In this document: one piece after another, positions 16,705-39,217 of the stretch | How the letters are laid out: each line of letters begins with the position of its first letter | Numbering within the stretch: position 1 is the first letter of the stretch | Assembly: GCF_030518215.1 (NCBI RefSeq) | Contig: NZ_JAULRT010000062.1 | Span: forward strand, 496,001 to 560,000 | DNA: 64,000 bases | Source: Gilvimarinus algae | GTDB taxonomy: Bacteria > Pseudomonadota > Gammaproteobacteria > Pseudomonadales > Cellvibrionaceae | Direction: 5' to 3' | The notes under the pieces: model-generated | Told to the model about the DNA's origin: nothing | The model's input: only the letters and a program-made list of their open reading frames with translations | Databases searched by the model: none | Made by a program: the position numbers and the translations under genes

Positions 16705-16736
16705 TGTAACAAATCGTAAAACAGATACTCTATAGT
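16705..16736 (+). promoter_or_regulatory. ECF-type promoter of the hvfABC operon
   Basis: TGTAAC (16705-16710), 17 nt, then CTCTATAGT (16728-16736). The same layout, TGTAAC, 17 nt, CTCTTTAGT, precedes the hvfX-sigma-anti-sigma operon on the other strand at 37132-37163. The distance from the end of the -10-like block to the ATG is 63 nt here and 64 nt there. Fifteen element positions outside the spacer fit, with one A/T difference. I infer it to be the target of the ECF sigma factor at 35722-36447. Confidence 0.65.
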
Positions 16737-16799: not shown

Positions 16800-17192
16800 A
16801 TGAATAAGAACTTTAAATCCCCCCTCGCGGCTGCCGTTGGCGCAGCTTTTCTGGCTGGTGCCGCCATGGCGCCGGTAGCCACTGCCGCTGAAAATCCGTT
16901 TGCGGCCGAATCTCTCGGTTCAGGCTACAAACTTGCCGCGCACGATGGTGAAGGCAAGTGCGGCGAAGGCAAGTGCGGTGAGCACAAAGCCGAAAAGGAA
17001 GGAAAATGCGGCGAGGGCAAATGCGGCGAGAAAAAAGCGGCCAAAGAAGGTAAATGCGGCGAAGGTAAGTGCGGCGAGAAAAAAGCCGACAAGGAAGGTA
17101 AGTGTGGCGAAGGCAAATGCGGCGGCGAAAAAGCAGACAAGGAAGGCAAGTGCGGCAGCAAGTCAGATAAAGAAGGCGCTTGCGGCCACTGA
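16800..17192 (+). CDS. hvfA: HvfA-type RiPP copper-metallophore precursor
   Basis: A 130-residue precursor peptide. A Sec signal peptide ends near A29/A30. It is followed by the family-typical NPFAAESLGSGYKLA and then a Lys/Glu/Gly-rich region with ten cysteines. Nine of them lie in EGKCG and the last in EGACG; the first is C54. In the Haemophilus Hvf system, cysteines in EGKCG motifs are turned by an MNIO enzyme into oxazolone-thioamide groups that bind Cu(I). The product would be exported unfolded to the periplasm. The stop codon overlaps the start of hvfB (TGATG), and GGAG (16788-16791) is the ribosome binding site. The high motif number, against only a few in many family members, could mean a high copper capacity. 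Confidence 0.9.
   Translation: MNKNFKSPLAAAVGAAFLAGAAMAPVATAAENPFAAESLGSGYKLAAHDGEGKCGEGKCGEHKAEKEGKCGEGKCGEKKAAKEGKCGEGKCGEKKADKEGKCGEGKCGGEKADKEGKCGSKSDKEGACGH
16950..17153 (+). repeat. In-frame 48-bp tandem repeats in hvfA
   Basis: About four units of 16 codons, consensus EKKADKEGKCGEGKCG, are each present with small codon changes; the last unit is degenerate. Each unit adds two modifiable cysteines, so unit gain or loss changes metal capacity in steps of two without a frameshift. Confidence 0.85.
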
Positions 17193-18061
17193 TGGATAAG
17201 CATCGCTTTGCGATAGCCGGTGCGGGTTTGGGCCTGCGCCGGAGCCTTCTGGCCCCTTTGGCGGATGTCTCCACCAATGAGGTCCAGTTTCTGGAGGTGG
17301 CTCCAGAGAATTGGATTGGTGTGGGCGGCCGTCTAGGGCGCCAGTTTCGTGCCTACACGGAGCGTTTTCCGTTTGTGTGCCACGGTTTGTCTTTATCCAT
17401 TGGTTCGCGTGATCCGCTGAATATTGATCTGCTCAAGGCAGTCAAAGGTTTTATGCGCGATCACGGGGTTATTGGTTACTCTGAGCATCTGAGTTACTGT
17501 AGCGACGATGGCCAATTGTATGACCTGCTGCCGATTCCGTTTACTGAAGACGCCGCCCGGCGTGTGGCTGAGCGCATTGTCCGAGCCCAGGATATTCTCG
17601 GCCAGCGCATCGCCATCGAAAATGCCTCCTATTACTGCGCCCCAGGCGCGCAGATGAGCGAGAGCGAATTTATTAATGCGGTGGTGGAAGAGGCCGATTG
17701 CAGCTTGCTGCTGGACATCAATAACATCATCGTTAACAGCGTAAACCATGGCTACGACGCCGAGACGTTTCTGCGCTCGATGCCTTTGGAGCGCGTGGCC
17801 TACGCGCATATTGCCGGCCATTATCATGAGGCCGAGGATCTGCGCGTTGATACCCACGGTGCGCCCGTCGAGGCGCCGGCCTGGAAGCTTCTCGAGCGCT
17901 TTTATGCCCTGGCCGGGCCAGTGCCGACTTTGCTGGAGCGCGACTTTAACCTTCCGCCGGTACCCGAGTTATTGGGTGAGGTGGCGCAAATTCGAGAGCG
18001 CCAAGTGCGTTGCGACGCCGGTGCCTCTGGCCGTCGTGCGCACGCGGAGTCGTCAGTATGA
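17192..18061 (+). CDS. hvfB: MNIO-type RiPP maturase HvfB (DUF692)
   Basis: A 289-residue multinuclear non-heme iron oxidative enzyme of the DUF692 TIM-barrel family. The ATG at 17192 overlaps the hvfA stop. Conserved metal-site segments are CHGLSLS (H64), SEHLSY (E98, H99), IENASYY (E143), LDINNIIVN with VNHG (D175, N177, H186), HIAGHYH and DTHG, and LLERDFNLPP near the end. The expected reaction is the oxidation of Cys residues of HvfA to oxazolone-thioamide groups using oxygen and an Fe2/Fe3 cluster, with HvfC as partner. It acts in the cytoplasm. Its 3' end overlaps hvfC by four bases. Confidence 0.93.
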   Translation: MDKHRFAIAGAGLGLRRSLLAPLADVSTNEVQFLEVAPENWIGVGGRLGRQFRAYTERFPFVCHGLSLSIGSRDPLNIDLLKAVKGFMRDHGVIGYSEHLSYCSDDGQLYDLLPIPFTEDAARRVAERIVRAQDILGQRIAIENASYYCAPGAQMSESEFINAVVEEADCSLLLDINNIIVNSVNHGYDAETFLRSMPLERVAYAHIAGHYHEAEDLRVDTHGAPVEAPAWKLLERFYALAGPVPTLLERDFNLPPVPELLGEVAQIRERQVRCDAGASGRRAHAESSV

Positions 18062-18804
18062 CAATGGGTGAGTCCGAGCGCTTGCAAGAGGCGCTTTCCC
18101 GTCATTTGCGCCACCCCGGCGTTCATCCTGCACCCGCGGGTATTGAAGACAGACGCCTGGCCATATACCGCGACCTGATTTACAACAACATCGAGGGATT
18201 CATCGCCGGGGGGTTCCCCGTGCTGCGCGAAATTCTCGACGATGACCGCTGGCACGCTCTGGTCAGGGATTTTGTCTCTACCCATCGAAGTCAAAGTCCG
18301 TATTTTCTCGAAATCAGCCAGGAATTTCTGGCCTACCTGCAAAATGAGCGTCAAGGTTCGCCCGACGACCCGCCATTTCTGCTTGAGTTGGCGCATTACG
18401 AGTGGGTGGAGCTGGCCCTAGATGTAGCCGAGGGCGAGTTACCTGCCGCCAGACAAGCTCAGGATCTGCTGGGCGGGCGAGTGCAGGTGTCCCCTTTACT
18501 GTGGTGTTTGAGCTATCGCTATCCGGTGCATCGCCTCGGCCCGGATTTTCAGCCCATGGAACCTCCCCCGGAGCCTACCTTCTTGTTGGTCTATCGCAAC
18601 CGCGCCGAACAGGTAGAGTTTATGCTCTCCAATAATGTCACTGTGCGATTGATCAAGATCCTGCAAGCTGGCACTGAATCCGGTGAGTCGGCGCTGCGCC
18701 AATTGGCTCAAGAGATGGAGCACCCCGACCCGGCACAACTGATTGAACACGGCGCCGGCCTATTAGAAGAGTTGAGCGCCAGAGACATTCTCTGGGCCGA
18801 GTGA
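18058..18804 (+). CDS. hvfC: RiPP maturation partner HvfC (DUF2063)
   Basis: A 248-residue protein with the DUF2063 N-terminal domain (LQEALSRHL...DRRLAIYRDLIYNNIEGFIAGGFPVLREIL) and a C-terminal region (PVHRLGPDFQP...FLLVYRNRAEQVEF...) typical of HvfC. Older annotations call the domain putative DNA-binding. In characterised MNIO systems such partners recognise the precursor and bring it to the DUF692 enzyme. The ATG at 18058 overlaps the hvfB stop as ATGA; an upstream in-frame start at 18010 lies inside hvfB and is rejected. The usual membrane component (DoxX/HvfX) does not follow, but a candidate sits at 36450-37067. Confidence 0.9.
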   Translation: MTMGESERLQEALSRHLRHPGVHPAPAGIEDRRLAIYRDLIYNNIEGFIAGGFPVLREILDDDRWHALVRDFVSTHRSQSPYFLEISQEFLAYLQNERQGSPDDPPFLLELAHYEWVELALDVAEGELPAARQAQDLLGGRVQVSPLLWCLSYRYPVHRLGPDFQPMEPPPEPTFLLVYRNRAEQVEFMLSNNVTVRLIKILQAGTESGESALRQLAQEMEHPDPAQLIEHGAGLLEELSARDILWAE

Positions 18805-18933
18805 GCAGCAAACCCGCCAGTTTCATCTATAGTTACTGTGAAACAACCTATTGTGCGCCAGATGCGTTTTTTTGGTGCTTTTCTCCGGGTCTGTAACATA
18901 AATGAAATATATTCCTCGCACTATACGCGCCGT

Positions 18934-18951
18934 TTGTCATATAACTGTCAC
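18934..18951 (+). promoter_or_regulatory. Pho box 1 upstream of the porin gene
   Basis: TTGTCATATAACTGTCAC closely matches the PhoB consensus of two CTGTCAT-type half-sites 11 bp apart (half-sites start at 18934 and 18945). The porin gene is the only plausible target. Confidence 0.7.
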
Positions 18952-18966
18952 TAAAAATTCATCACC

Positions 18967-18984
18967 TTGACATTTAACTGTCAT
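18967..18984 (+). promoter_or_regulatory. Pho box 2 upstream of the porin gene
   Basis: TTGACATTTAACTGTCAT again has two half-sites 11 bp apart (18967, 18978) and lies exactly 33 bp, three 11-bp steps, after box 1. The first half-site has a mismatch that makes TGACA/TGTCA an inverted repeat. The box ends 20 nt before the porin ATG, which is unusually close for an activating site. Confidence 0.5.
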
Positions 18985-19004
18985 GAGTGGGCGGAGGCGA
19001 TTCA

Positions 19005-35278: not shown

Positions 35279-35497
35279 AGGTAACTCTTGGCTCCGGGTG
35301 TACTACTGAGGTGGCTTAAGGCGGGAGGTTCGGCTCCAGCGCCCGTGTCACCGTTATACGGACTCTTGGCTCATTTCAGACTAAGGCCCCGATAGGCCTA
35401 AGACAGCAACATAGCATTATTTGTTCGCCTAGCCCAGCAAGGCTCCCGGGTAAATAAGTGTTGATCGGGTTAAAGGCCGGTAAATACCCCCGCTGAA

Positions 35498-35728
35498 TCA
35501 GTCTCGACTACGCAATATTTGCACTATTTTGGCGCTTTGCCCTTTGGGGGCCGGCTCCAGAGCACTCACTCGAGCGGCCAATTCCCGAGTGGTTCGCAGG
35601 TGGCGCACGAACCGGCGGCAGTTATGACACAGGGCCAAATGCAGCCGTATTTGCCATTTGAGCGATTTGGGCCCTGAGCCGTCCAGATATTCACTGGCCA
35701 GTTGGGCGAGTTCGCGACACTTCAACAT
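35498..35728 (-). CDS. Short zinc-binding anti-sigma factor (zf-HC2/ZAS type)
   Basis: 76 residues from the ATG at 35728 (MLKCRELAQLASEYLDG). The ZAS motif is HLALCHNC (H-x3-C-x2-C), with an earlier cysteine at position 4, as expected for a zinc-dependent anti-sigma domain. There is no transmembrane helix, so it should be a cytoplasmic regulator able to sense metal or redox state directly. Its start overlaps the sigma factor gene stop by 7 nt, the standard sigma/anti-sigma arrangement. A longer frame from 35830 lies within the sigma gene and is rejected. Confidence 0.85.
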   Translation of the reverse strand: MLKCRELAQLASEYLDGSGPKSLKWQIRLHLALCHNCRRFVRHLRTTRELAARVSALEPAPKGQSAKIVQILRSRD

Positions 35729-36447
35729 TGGCCGGTCTCCTGATAGCGATCGATCACTTGCATCAAACTCAGGCGTGCCCGATGAACCAACACCCGGGCG
35801 TTGGCGCTGGAGATATCCAGTAGCTGGCAAATCTCCTCAAAGCTTCTCTGCTCTAAGTCGCGAAGCACAAAAGCGGCCTTTTGTGCAGGCGGAAGCAGAG
35901 CCAGTGTTTTGTTGATGCATCGGTGCAGTTGCGTTTGTTCCAGCAGAGCCTCGGGGCTGTCGAGGTGCCAGTGCGCTGGCGCGTTGGCCCAGTGGCCGTC
36001 GGCGCGAAACTTCATGCCCTCCAGGCCGTCGGTTTCGCCTGGCAGAGCGTCCAGTGACTGCTGGCGGGATTCGCGTTTCGCCCGGTTTTTCGCTTCGTTG
36101 CTGACGATGCGCAACAGCCAGGTTTTCAGGCTGGCGCGGCCTTCGAACTTGGACAGGGCGCGGTGGGCAGAAACCCAGGCTTCCTGTACCACTTCCTCTG
36201 CCAGTGAGGAGCCGGCAATGCCAGTGGCGACGGTGAGCATCACGCTGTAGTGGCGCTCGATAAGGCGGATATAGGCCTGGTCATCCCCGGCCAGGGCTGC
36301 CTCGATCAGTGCGGCCTCTTCGGTGTCGGTGTTGTCAGTATCCGTCAAAGGCTGTACTCGCGTTCTAGTGTTACGCCCCTGAAGCGGGGAAGTATCGAGA
36401 AAGGGGATGGCCGGCGGCCGGTGCCTGAACAGGGCGCAATATATCAT
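35722..36447 (-). CDS. ECF RNA polymerase sigma factor, candidate regulator of the Hvf genes
   Basis: 241 residues from the ATG at 36447, which follows the stop of the DoxX gene by only 2 nt. The sigma-2 region runs from LIEAALAGDDQAYIRLIERHY through VVQEAWVSAHRALSKF to LKTWLLRIVSNEAKNR. The sigma-4 region is CINKTLALLPPAQKAAFVLRD...SFEEICQLLDISSANARVLVHRARLSL. There are about 45 extra residues before sigma-2, so a TTG start at 36348 (LTDTDNTDTEE) is a real alternative. It is flanked by hvfX upstream and a ZAS anti-sigma gene downstream. The operon carries a promoter element shared with hvfABC, from which I infer autoregulation and control of the metallophore. Confidence 0.9.
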   Translation of the reverse strand: MIYCALFRHRPPAIPFLDTSPLQGRNTRTRVQPLTDTDNTDTEEAALIEAALAGDDQAYIRLIERHYSVMLTVATGIAGSSLAEEVVQEAWVSAHRALSKFEGRASLKTWLLRIVSNEAKNRAKRESRQQSLDALPGETDGLEGMKFRADGHWANAPAHWHLDSPEALLEQTQLHRCINKTLALLPPAQKAAFVLRDLEQRSFEEICQLLDISSANARVLVHRARLSLMQVIDRYQETGQC

Positions 36448-36449
36448 TG

Positions 36450-37067
36450 TTAGCGGCTCTTTGAGGCGAGGCGGCTGAATGCGTAGCGGACGATCCAATA
36501 ATCTGCGCTAAGATACCGCCCTGGGCCCCAGACCAGCAGGGCCAGTAACATAATTAAATAGGTAGCGGCGAACTCGATGCCATTATTAAGCACCACGAAG
36601 GAGCCGCTTGAGGTGAGCCAGTCGTAGTGACCGTGTTCGCGCAGTATATCCCGCGCGCGCTCCAGTTTAATGGCTGCCTGCTCGACCCGCTCGGTGGCAA
36701 AAGGGGCGCCCGGGTCGGCGATGGCCTGCCAGCCATAGTCCCGGTGCACCGTGCCGATGGCGACGAGCATGGTGATAATCAGCGGTATGACTGTCGCCCG
36801 GGTAAACAGGCCAAGCGCCAGCAGTATCGCGCCGCCGAGCTCGGCGGCAGTGGCAAGCGCCGCCATCAACCAAGGCAGCGGCAATCCCAGTCCCCAGTCG
36901 CTGTTGCCAAACCAGGCCACGGTATCGCTGAAGTGACTTAGCTTCTGTGTACCTGCCATCCAGAATATCGGCACGAGGTAGACTCTTAAGGCGAGCCCGG
37001 CAAAGACGTCGAGCTTCTGCAGCGCGGCGACAGCCGAGCGATACTGGTGGAACAAGGTGCTGAGCAT
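36450..37067 (-). CDS. hvfX: DoxX family membrane protein, HvfX-like
   Basis: 205 residues with four to five hydrophobic helices. LVPIFWMAGTQKLSHF, WFGNSDWGLGLPLPWLMAALATAAELGGAILLALGL (two helices), TMLVAIGTVHRDYGW and GSFVVLNNGIEFAATYLIMLL agree with the DoxX subgroup that accompanies HvfA/B/C copper-RiPP genes (annotated HvfX in such clusters). The precise role is not settled; copper handling or redox support of maturation or export at the membrane has been proposed. In most clusters it sits beside hvfABC, but here it lies about 18 kb away, first in an operon with an ECF sigma factor and its anti-sigma factor. Confidence 0.82.
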   Translation of the reverse strand: MLSTLFHQYRSAVAALQKLDVFAGLALRVYLVPIFWMAGTQKLSHFSDTVAWFGNSDWGLGLPLPWLMAALATAAELGGAILLALGLFTRATVIPLIITMLVAIGTVHRDYGWQAIADPGAPFATERVEQAAIKLERARDILREHGHYDWLTSSGSFVVLNNGIEFAATYLIMLLALLVWGPGRYLSADYWIVRYAFSRLASKSR

Positions 37068-37131
37068 AGGGGGCTACCTTTTGGAGTCGCTTGGGTTACT
37101 GATTCCGAGGCCCATTGAGCGCCGGCTTTTG

Positions 37132-37163
37132 ACTAAAGAGGCTCAAAAAGGCATTTCGTTACA
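37132..37163 (-). promoter_or_regulatory. ECF-type promoter of the hvfX-sigma-anti-sigma operon
   Basis: On the minus strand TGTAAC (37163-37158), 17 nt, CTCTTTAGT (37140-37132). It matches the element before hvfA at every non-spacer base except one A/T. The end of the element is 64 nt from the hvfX ATG. It lies in the divergent region shared with thrS. Confidence 0.65.
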
Positions 37164-37193
37164 GTGGCGGTGGTTTAGCCGCGCCACTTTTTA

Positions 37194-37199
37194 TATACT
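37194..37199 (+). promoter_or_regulatory. Candidate -10 element for the thrS operon
   Basis: TATACT within a T-rich stretch, 77 nt before the thrS ATG. No convincing -35 at 17 nt. It is placed between the divergent hvfX promoter and thrS. Confidence 0.35.
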
Positions 37200-37276
37200 G
37201 GCCCGCTTTTAACGGCGCCACGAGCGCAAACACACAAGTGGCCTTTGGTAGGGGTCACCACTGAGAAGGATAGACA

Positions 37277-39217
37277 ATGCCTGTTATTACCCTCCCCGAC
37301 GGTTCAAAGCGCGAGTTTCCCCAGCCGGTTACCCTGCTGCAAGTGGCTGAAGACATAGGTCCGGGCCTTGCCAAGGCCACAGTCTGCGGTCGCATTAACG
37401 GTCGCCTGGTGGATGCCTGCGAACTCATTGAGCAAGATGCCGAGATTACGCTGATTACCGGCCGCGATGACGAGGGTTTGGAAGTGATTCGTCACTCCTT
37501 TGCGCACCTGGTCGGCCATGCCATCAAGCAGCTGTTTCCCGAGGCCAAAATGGCCATTGGCCCTGTGATTGATGATGGTTTTTACTACGACATTGATTAC
37601 GAACGCCCGCTGACACCGGAAGATCTGGAGGCGATCGAAGCGCGCATCGGCGAGCTGATCAAGAAAGATTACGACGTGATCAAACAGATGACCCCCATCG
37701 CCCAGGCGCGTACCGTCTTTGCCGAGCGTGGAGAGGATTACAAGGTTGAGCTGGTGGATGGCCTGATCGCCGAAGGCGAGCAGGCAGTGGGCCTTTACCA
37801 CCACGAAGAGTACGTGGACATGTGCCGCGGCCCCCACGTGCCCAATACCCGGGTGATGCGCCACTTTAAACTGATGCGTGTGTCAGGCGCCTACTGGCGC
37901 GGCGATGCCAGTAACAAGCAGTTGCAGCGCATTTACGGCACCGCCTGGAACGACAAGAAAGAACTGAAGGCCTATTTGCGCCGCTTGGAAGAGGCGGAGA
38001 AGCGCGATCACCGCAAGCTGGCGAAGAAGTTCGACCTTTTCCACATGCAGGAAGAGGCGCCGGGCATGGTGTTCTGGCACCCTAAGGGTTGGTCGGTCTA
38101 TACCACCATTGAACAGTACATGCGCCAGGTGCAGCGCGACAACGGCTATCAGGAAATCAAAACCCCTCAGGTGGTGGATTTGAGCCTGTGGCAAAAATCC
38201 GGTCATGCCGACAAGTTCGGCGATGACATGTTTATGCTCAAATCCGAAGACCGTGAATTTGCGGTCAAGCCCATGAACTGCCCCTGCCACGTGCAGGTGT
38301 TTAACCAGGGGCTGCGCAGCTACCGCGATCTGCCGCTTCGTTTGGCGGAGTTTGGCTCCTGCCACCGCAACGAGGCTTCAGGCTCTTTGCACGGTATTAT
38401 GCGGGTGCGCGGCTTTACCCAGGATGATGCGCATATCTTCTGTACCGAGGCGGCCATTCAGGAAGAGGTGTCAGCGTTTACTGACCTGCTGTACAAGGTC
38501 TACGCTGACTTTGGTTTCAATGAGGTGATTATTCGCCTGTCGACTCGTCCCGAGCAGCGCGTCGGCGATGACGCGGTCTGGGACAAGGCGGAAAAAGCCT
38601 TGTCCGACGCGCTTGATGCCAAAGAGCTCGACTGGAAGCTCTTACCGGGTGAGGGGGCGTTTTACGGACCGAAAATCGAGTTCTCCCTGAAAGATTGCCT
38701 GGGTCGGGTATGGCAGTGTGGCACCATTCAGGTGGACTTCTCCATGCCTGGACGCCTGGATGCCCAGTATGTGGCCGAAGATGGCTCGCGACAGGTGCCG
38801 GTTATGCTGCATCGCGCGATTCTGGGTTCGTTTGAGCGTTTTATCGGTATTTTGATCGAAAACTACGAGGGCGCTTTCCCCACTTGGTTGGCGCCGGTGC
38901 AGGTGGTGGTGGCCAATATTACCGACAATCAGGCCGAATACGTGCAAAAAATCGAAAAAACCCTCTCAGAACGTGGGTTTAGGGCGGTTTCGGACTTGAG
39001 AAACGAGAAGATCGGCTTTAAAATCCGCGAGCACACCATTCAGCGGGTTCCCTACTTGATCGTCGTGGGTGACAAAGAGGTGGAATCCGGCCAGGTAGCC
39101 GTGCGTACGCGCGACGGTAACGACCTGGGTGTAATGAGTCTGGAAGCCTTTACCGACCTGTTGGCAGCGGATGTTGCTAACCGTAGTCGGGTATTGGCGT
39201 CTGACTCGCAAGATTAA
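37277..39217 (+). CDS. thrS: Threonine-tRNA ligase
   Basis: A 646-residue class II aminoacyl-tRNA synthetase. An N-terminal TGS domain (residues 1-62) is followed by the editing domain with [16 protein letters not shown] and later CRGPHVPNT. The catalytic core has [12 protein letters not shown] (zinc cysteine) and [20 protein letters not shown] (motif 2), and the anticodon-binding domain has [10 protein letters not shown]. It leads the thrS-infC-rpmI-rplT-pheST operon. Confidence 0.97.

Follow-up and report, generated by a model that had tools for sequence, protein, structure and literature searches.

In Neisseria and Haemophilus, the regulons of the ECF sigma factors SigE and RpoE2 include the methionine-sulfoxide reductase MsrAB, according to the accessible text of the reports (PMC2893595, PMC3240639, PMC7907618). 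Under HOCl, Haemophilus RpoE2 drives a cluster of DoxX, COG3220 (UPF0276) and DUF2063 genes, and both factors are called ECF group 13 in the portions seen of the same source (PMC7907618); they are likened to the system below by published description. In Caulobacter, the accessible text describes two separate DUF2282/DUF692/DUF2063 operons under one ECF16 factor, SigF, paired with NrsF; SigF also drives, in part, its own operon and a YedY gene, the boxes are GTAACC-N16-CGAA, and the stress is chromium (PMC3511200). A survey of such peptide clusters, as far as its text was accessible, noted that Buf1 clusters can be accompanied by sigma and NrsF genes, and a few EGKCG clusters by Oxidored_molyb and ferric-reductase genes (PMC12452194). 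For the ZAS protein RsrA, the text seen reports that disulfide stress leads to disulfide formation and loss of zinc (PMC3961337).

The stretch of Gilvimarinus algae DNA analysed here, 64,000 nucleotides long and called the window below, carries hvfABC and, 20 kb away, hvfX followed by genes for an ECF sigma factor and a small anti-sigma factor (Table 1). A signal sequence is apparent in HvfA (judged by eye); the protein scored below the cut-off of the equivalog family NF050188 (53.9 bits vs. 95) and had no Pfam match. COG3220 of the Haemophilus cluster is presumably an MNIO protein.

Table 1. Genes and predicted promoters of the two hvf clusters, in window coordinates
Feature	Position	Strand	Basis
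Predicted ECF-type promoter of hvfABC	16705..16736	+	TGTAACAAATCGTAAAACAGATACTCTATAGT, exact match to TGTAAC-N17-CTCTWTAGT; -35 TGTAAC 16705-16710, 16-nt spacer, -10 core ACTC 16727-16730, then TATA
hvfA, 130-aa precursor with repeated EGKCG units	16800..17192	+	NF050137 82.9 bits (cut-off 19.5)
hvfB, MNIO maturase	17192..18061	+	PF05114 329 bits; NF003818 417 bits (cut-off 360)
hvfC, DUF2063 partner protein	18058..18804	+	NF050145 325 bits (cut-off 142)
ZAS-type, predicted zinc-binding anti-sigma factor, 76 aa	35498..35728	-	zf-HC2 27.4 bits; NF052368 57.7 bits (cut-off 50)
ECF sigma factor, 241 aa from ATG 36447	35722..36447	-	Sigma70_r2 55 bits; Sigma70_r4_2 52 bits; TIGR02937 86 bits (cut-off 42.9)
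hvfX, DoxX-family protein	36450..37067	-	NF050144 223 bits (cut-off 80); PF07681 76 bits
Predicted ECF-type promoter of hvfX-sigma-antisigma operon	37132..37163	-	TGTAACGAAATGCCTTTTTGAGCCTCTTTAGT read 37163-37132, exact match to TGTAAC-N17-CTCTWTAGT; -35 TGTAAC 37163-37158, 16-nt spacer, -10 core CCTC 37141-37138, then TTTA

The hvfX-linked sigma factor matched regions 2 and 4 and, in the profile search, gave no region-3 match, which is the composition of an ECF factor. A putative promoter box lies ahead of the hvfX-sigma operon, and the anti-sigma gene lies downstream of the sigma gene, its start overlapping the sigma stop by 7 nt. Cys4, His30, Cys34 and Cys37 of the anti-sigma factor were invariant in 16 of 16 aligned sequences and form the H-x3-C-x2-C motif with an upstream Cys that defines a ZAS protein. 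Profile searches with this 76-aa zf-HC2 protein gave no NrsF match, which sets the pair apart from the SigF/NrsF type of ECF16. Searches of the PDB returned a weak match only for the anti-sigma factor (RsiW, E 0.011) and general ECF factors for the sigma factor.

Several features of the sigma gene were seen besides. An alternative start is the in-frame TTG at 36348. The stretch ATGATATATT at 36447-36438 (-) marks an in-frame start, use of which would give the sigma factor an N-terminal extension of 33 aa that is poorly conserved, and ATGCTATATT or a near form stands at the matching place in six other sigma-bearing Gilvimarinus genomes; alternatively, the ATGATATATT stretch could be the extended -10 element of a basal promoter. 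The C-terminus carries an ETGxC motif that is invariant in 14 of 14 aligned relatives (window 35722-35736). A scan of viral contigs returned one relative of this factor, 41% identical, encoded on the IMG/VR contig L341.

The first-pass annotation of this DNA had placed one motif, TGTAAC-N17-CTCTWTAGT, before both hvfA and hvfX, and both sites were exact at those positions, with 63 nt (hvfA) and 64 nt (hvfX) from the end of the motif to the ATG. Of the proposed layout, TGTAAC was kept as it was, while the conserved form proved to be N16 to NNTC (N18 to TC), with a CTCTWTAGT tail that is partly conserved. Both sites are therefore described here as putative ECF promoters of the refined pattern TGTAAC-N16-NNTC, and transcription of hvfABC is predicted to start at about 16737. 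The boxes have the -35 word and spacing of the ECF16 pattern TGTAAC-N16/17-CGAA, but their -10 word is NNTC.

When the motif was searched in the window alone at up to three mismatches, shuffled sequences gave a mean of 0.70 matches and reached at least two in 20 of 100 cases, so that the match count in the window proves little; this test was replaced by a matrix from outside, all-hexamer rankings and genome scans. The genome-wide scan that had been named as a check on the motif found it exactly at the two window sites only and nowhere at one mismatch (4,198,283 bases in 62 contigs; 0.007 exact matches predicted from base composition). Four sites were found at two mismatches, and the reversed-control motif had eight matches at up to two mismatches. 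Since the motif was drawn from the same two sites, further, less circular tests were needed. When the 127,942 window positions were scored with a matrix built from 18 promoters of other genera, the hvfA site (18.6 bits) ranked first and the hvfX site (14.9 bits) second; because TGTAAC, the word seen in the window itself, had served to select those 18 sites, the matrix is independent only in its -10 part and its spacing. The best matrix scores in 20 Markov-shuffled windows were 10.4-17.2, so that the score of the hvfX site taken alone is not beyond chance for the whole window.

Across 58 genomes, the original string and its reversed control were matched 26 and 25 times, respectively, at up to one mismatch. 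Seven of the 26 matches were exact, namely both sites of the window, those before hvfA in genomes G003, G004, G006 and G007, and one in G049 (L081). The string, which is in part genus-specific, was replaced by TGTAAC-N16-NNTC. Short patterns were not over-represented genome-wide, as TGTAAC-N18-TCYAW occurred 31 times in eight Gilvimarinus genomes against 68 times for the reversed control.

Seven Gilvimarinus genomes bear the sigma factor (G000, the window's own genome, G001 and G003-G007; 54-66% identical to that of the window), and hvfA is preceded by a box in all seven. This box reads TGTAAC-N16-CCTCTATAGT in four genomes, has ACTCTATAGT as its -10 part in the window and CATC in G001 and G005. 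At the sigma operon, TGTAAC-N16-CGTC was found in G001, G004, G005 and G006 and CGTAAC-N16-CGTC in G003; the -10 word of the window is CCTC, and that of G007 is TCTC. A close HvfX was not found in G001 and G007, and there the box stands ahead of the sigma gene. Spacers and leaders diverge widely among these boxes. Genome G002 had no close sigma relative (best 30% identity), no close HvfX and no remnant at the prc-thrS junction, and its hvfA box is altered at two bases of the conserved part (AGTAAC-N16-CCAC).

Relatives of the sigma factor were sought in 84,980 species, each represented by one genome, and the best 80 loci were kept. From these, 19 hvf upstream regions outside Gilvimarinus were taken, and two more came from G035, which belongs to another genus of the family. 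Each of the 21 regions lies ahead of hvfA, or ahead of an hvfX that follows neither hvfA nor hvfC and was assumed to lead its operon; L173 (Gilvimarinus), L205 and L236 (hvfB alone detected) and any hvfX behind hvfC or hvfA were left out. TGTAAC-N16-NNTC was present in 18 of the 21 regions, 14 of them with the CNTC form, and was absent from the three hvfX regions of Pleionea. Fourteen regions combine TGTAAC and CNTC at N16, and each of the other spacings between 5 and 30 gave 0-2 such regions. When all hexamers ahead of N16-CNTC were ranked without presetting the -35 word, TGTAAC came first with 14 regions and the next hexamer had 3. The same ranking was repeated over 881 kb from 79 named sigma loci, leaving out L173 and masking the sigma gene; some of these loci are close relatives of one another. 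TGTAAC was the top hexamer at N16 before [ACG]NTC[TC]A (25 vs. 0.87 expected), the runner-up had 14 (0.69 expected), and at the other spacings from 8 to 25 TGTAAC occurred 0-2 times.

Boxed hvfA or hvfX genes were seen in Cellvibrio, Spongiibacter, Pseudomonas, Halopseudomonas, Kangiella, Alcanivorax and one further genus of the family, and a relative of the hvfX-linked sigma factor is encoded at the locus or in the genome of these boxed loci. Gene order varies. In Spongiibacter marinus (L189), hvfA and hvfX-sigma are divergent with one box each; in several Pseudomonas (L198, L200, L208, L219 and L227), the sigma-antisigma pair is followed by a boxed hvfABCX; and at L202, L232, L234 and L237 the boxes lie immediately ahead of the sigma gene. 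The hvfA and hvfX-sigma genes of Cellvibrio (L314, L320) are on separate contigs, each boxed, and the hvfA and hvfX of G035, also each boxed, are 2.5 Mb apart on one contig. It was also seen that the region-4 codons of the sigma gene spell TGTAAC-N16-CATC in many relatives (e.g., L215:6520 and L221:6508). Such matches inside the sigma gene were rejected as promoters, being a coding coincidence that pollutes the scans, and were masked or set aside.

Co-occurrence of the hvfA box and the sigma factor was counted in the 30 best hvfB loci of the 48 genomes that had a match (58 searched, the window's own included), hvfA being readable in 29 of them and not in G039. A genome was counted as sigma-bearing if its match covered most of the protein at an identity of at least 33%, a level well clear of the next matches. 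A single fixed pattern found the box ahead of hvfA in 7 of the 11 genomes that have a sigma relative and in none of the 18 that have none (Fisher 2e-4); with the CATC variant of G001 included, the count became 8 of 11. Seven of the 11 sigma-bearing genomes belong to one genus, and collapsed to genera the comparison was 2 of 5 vs. 0 of 18, which weakens the Fisher value to about 0.04, so relatedness matters. The hvfA box was absent in G017, G047 and G049 despite their sigma relatives (56%, 41% and 36%, respectively).

In the window's own genome, TGTAAC-N18-TCT occurred at 16 sites (28 for the reversed control, about 19 expected from composition). Twelve of the 16 lie inside open reading frames of at least 150 codons, and the four intergenic sites precede hvfA, hvfX-sigma, msrP (NF003767, 482 bits, cut-off 207) and gor, the glutathione-disulfide reductase gene (NF004776, 620 bits, cut-off 480). 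The msrP gene was found in 15 of 22 genomes searched, and 200 nt upstream of it were read. A box was present in all eight Gilvimarinus genomes, intact even in G002, which has no close sigma relative; near forms stood in G008 and G020 (AGTAAC and CGTAAC), G008 (AGTAAC) likewise being without a close sigma relative, and no box was found in the 200 nt of the five other genomes. The msrP box of G002 may be explained by recent loss of the sigma factor or by a second factor that reads msrP. For gor, promoters were read in the own genome and in G006; a separate scan found the box in G006, where the orthologue is 66% identical (NF004776, 498 bits). A gene for a DUF6596-type ECF sigma factor is divergent from msrP in the own genome, outside the window (L252:206-1450, -).

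Further boxed genes were found in other genera. The box lies ahead of msrB and of a peroxiredoxin-like gene in G035, and ahead of a gene for a glutathione-dependent disulfide oxidoreductase in Spongiibacter (NF008731, 509 bits, cut-off 325). ArsS genes are boxed in P. indica (446 bits) and at L242 (469 bits; cut-off 300), and in Alcanivorax (L221) the boxed gene resembles an arsenite methyltransferase below the cut-off (160 of 263). The boxes at L221:10775, L242:5976 (-) and L312:1501, upstream of the arsenite-methyltransferase-like gene and ArsS genes, suggest that metalloid functions belong to the regulon of some relatives. A cytochrome P460 gene is boxed at L186, and one at L187 was recognised by likeness only, with no NCBIfam match. 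Some boxed genes of other genomes may be chance matches, the counts there being near those of the reversed control. In the window, the porin gene that follows hvfC is preceded by TGTAAC-N16-CCTC (at 18892), which was tried as a third target and rejected: a GTAAC stretch recurs at this place in five of seven other Gilvimarinus genomes, but the -10 word is not conserved in relatives, and Pho-box-like repeats are found next to it (18860-19004).

From what the DNA shows, namely the boxes with their conserved words and spacing, their occurrence together with the sigma factor, the gene order and the zinc residues, we consider it likely that one sigma factor, encoded behind hvfX, reads both TGTAAC-N16-NNTC promoters as part of an ECF regulon gated by redox state or metals. 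The two clusters, 20 kb apart, probably make and support a copper-binding peptide, and they are very probably switched on together. The first-pass annotation had made the same proposal of one ECF factor for both units, and the recurrence of the box together with its co-occurrence with the sigma family (7 of 11 vs. 0 of 18) argues well for it. The name given there, a copper-RiPP regulon, is too narrow, as the remaining two intergenic boxes precede msrP and gor. The scan of relatives that it had called for found the box again at hvf loci; the original string at up to one mismatch hardly exceeded its control, and the boxed genes were not limited to metal or RiPP genes. On these sequence grounds, the name should read oxidant/metal stress regulon including the RiPP.

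Several other explanations would account for the shared words. The boxes might be read by a different sigma factor, such as another ECF factor of the genome or the DUF6596-type factor encoded divergently from msrP in G000, with the hvfX-linked factor merely nearby; the intact msrP box of G002 and the near one of G008, genomes that lack a close relative of the hvfX-linked factor, fit such a reading, as does the position of the DUF6596-type gene. We hold it to be unlikely: the hvfA box tracks the hvfX-linked family (7-8 of 11 genomes vs. 0 of 18), Spongiibacter, Cellvibrio and several Pseudomonas have the box at the sigma factor's own or next operon, and the sequence upstream of msrP in G004 looks different, with the box kept.

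Chance resemblance, or a pair of ordinary sigma-70 promoters, is very improbable, even though 20 of 100 shuffled windows yield at least two matches at up to three mismatches and the TATAGT at hvfA resembles a sigma-70 -10 word. Both elements are kept at fixed spacing across species and genera while the spacers diverge, the outside matrix retrieves both sites, and a consensus scan of 35300-37300, which covers the hvfX side only, found no sigma-70-type promoter where 0.9 were expected. Alternatively, the box might be no promoter but a site bound by an activator such as a copper-responsive regulator, and some of the targets are indeed metal-linked. The -35/-10 layout, the orientation towards the gene, the fixed 16-nt spacing and the link to an ECF gene are, however, traits of an ECF promoter, and promoters of Caulobacter SigF, Brucella BcrS and Neisseria SigE, as described in the accessible reports, have similar -35 or -10 words; an activator site is accordingly given very little credence.

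Oxidation of RsrA releases its sigma factor. With the hvfX-linked factor as the reader of the boxes, we infer, on the model of RsrA and MseR, that oxidants or thiophilic metals operate the switch. As long as there is no stress, the 76-aa anti-sigma factor, predicted to bind zinc, would hold the sigma factor; oxidation or metal attack at the Cys4-His30-Cys34-Cys37 site, the presumed inducing event, would free it. The free factor is predicted to bind the boxes and to transcribe its own operon, with hvfX, sigma and anti-sigma genes as one unit, together with hvfABC at its distance of 20 kb; msrP, for methionine-sulfoxide repair, and gor are less certain targets. The outcome would be a small stress regulon in which a copper-binding peptide, of predicted thiooxazole chemistry, is made while oxidised methionine and thiols are repaired.

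A wider reading has, in our estimate, an even chance of being right: that a gammaproteobacterial ECF-ZAS pair with its own promoter word makes copper-binding thiooxazole peptides one arm of a response to thiol and methionine oxidation, coupling hvfABC and hvfX to MsrP/MsrB and glutathione reductase and, in other lineages, adding peroxiredoxin, the glutathione-dependent disulfide oxidoreductase and ArsS/ArsM-like genes. If this is true, oxazolins are products of oxidant defence and not of copper defence only. A promoter word for which any genome can be scanned, which one zinc-gated sigma factor apparently reads and which methionine-sulfoxide and glutathione repair genes share, offers a direct and cheap test of the cellular trigger of copper-binding MNIO peptides, discriminating among copper, reactive chlorine and disulfide stress. 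With this word, hvf genes that are not linked can also be assigned to a common pathway.

Like the system described here, Neisseria SigE-MseR and Haemophilus RpoE2-HrsE consist of an ECF factor and a small ZAS anti-sigma factor that control a DoxX-containing cluster, in the accessible text of the reports (PMC2893595, PMC3240639, PMC7907618). The zinc residues of Neisseria MseR (NMB2145) carry the same numbers as those of the window anti-sigma factor (Cys4, His30, Cys34 and Cys37), and the Neisseria -10 word CGTCTAAH, in the text seen, resembles the CGTCT boxes of Gilvimarinus sigma operons. The Neisseria -35 word, GTMAGBWTT with a 12-13-nt spacer as printed there, differs from TGTAAC-N16, and the boxes here do not fit the SigE promoter pattern; the methionine-sulfoxide reductase of those descriptions is MsrAB instead of MsrP, and hvfABC and hvfX occupy two loci here. 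Caulobacter SigF, in the portions seen, differs by its -10 word CGAA, by its anti-sigma factor NrsF and by its precursors, DUF2282 bufferins in place of EGKCG peptides. Brucella BcrS-AbcS and Bradyrhizobium EcfF (ECF16), described as induced by HOCl or H2O2 in the accessible text (PMC8315932, PMC3420878), share the -35 word TGTAAC or GTAAC, and their -10 words are of the GCGAAA or CG type, unlike NNTC. Acinetobacter SigAb was set aside as a precedent, as its boxes GTCAAC and CGTT differ and its anti-sigma factors AabA and AabB are described on an RpoE-like model in the text seen (PMC12153292). Beyond the Neisseria, Haemophilus and Caulobacter cases, no earlier report of an ECF-ZAS promoter at EGKCG or hvf clusters was among the matches listed in the open-licence literature. 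In oxazolin, bufferin and captophorin clusters, as far as the sources were accessible, hvfABC and hvfX are the usual genes, as they are here (PMC12452194; PMC13097082), and for EGKCG clusters the accessible part of the survey names no ECF-ZAS pair and no promoter (PMC12452194). The outline of such a regulon is thus known; what is new, as far as the literature was searched, is the promoter word itself, the pairing of a ZAS-gated factor with EGKCG peptides and the separation of the operons.
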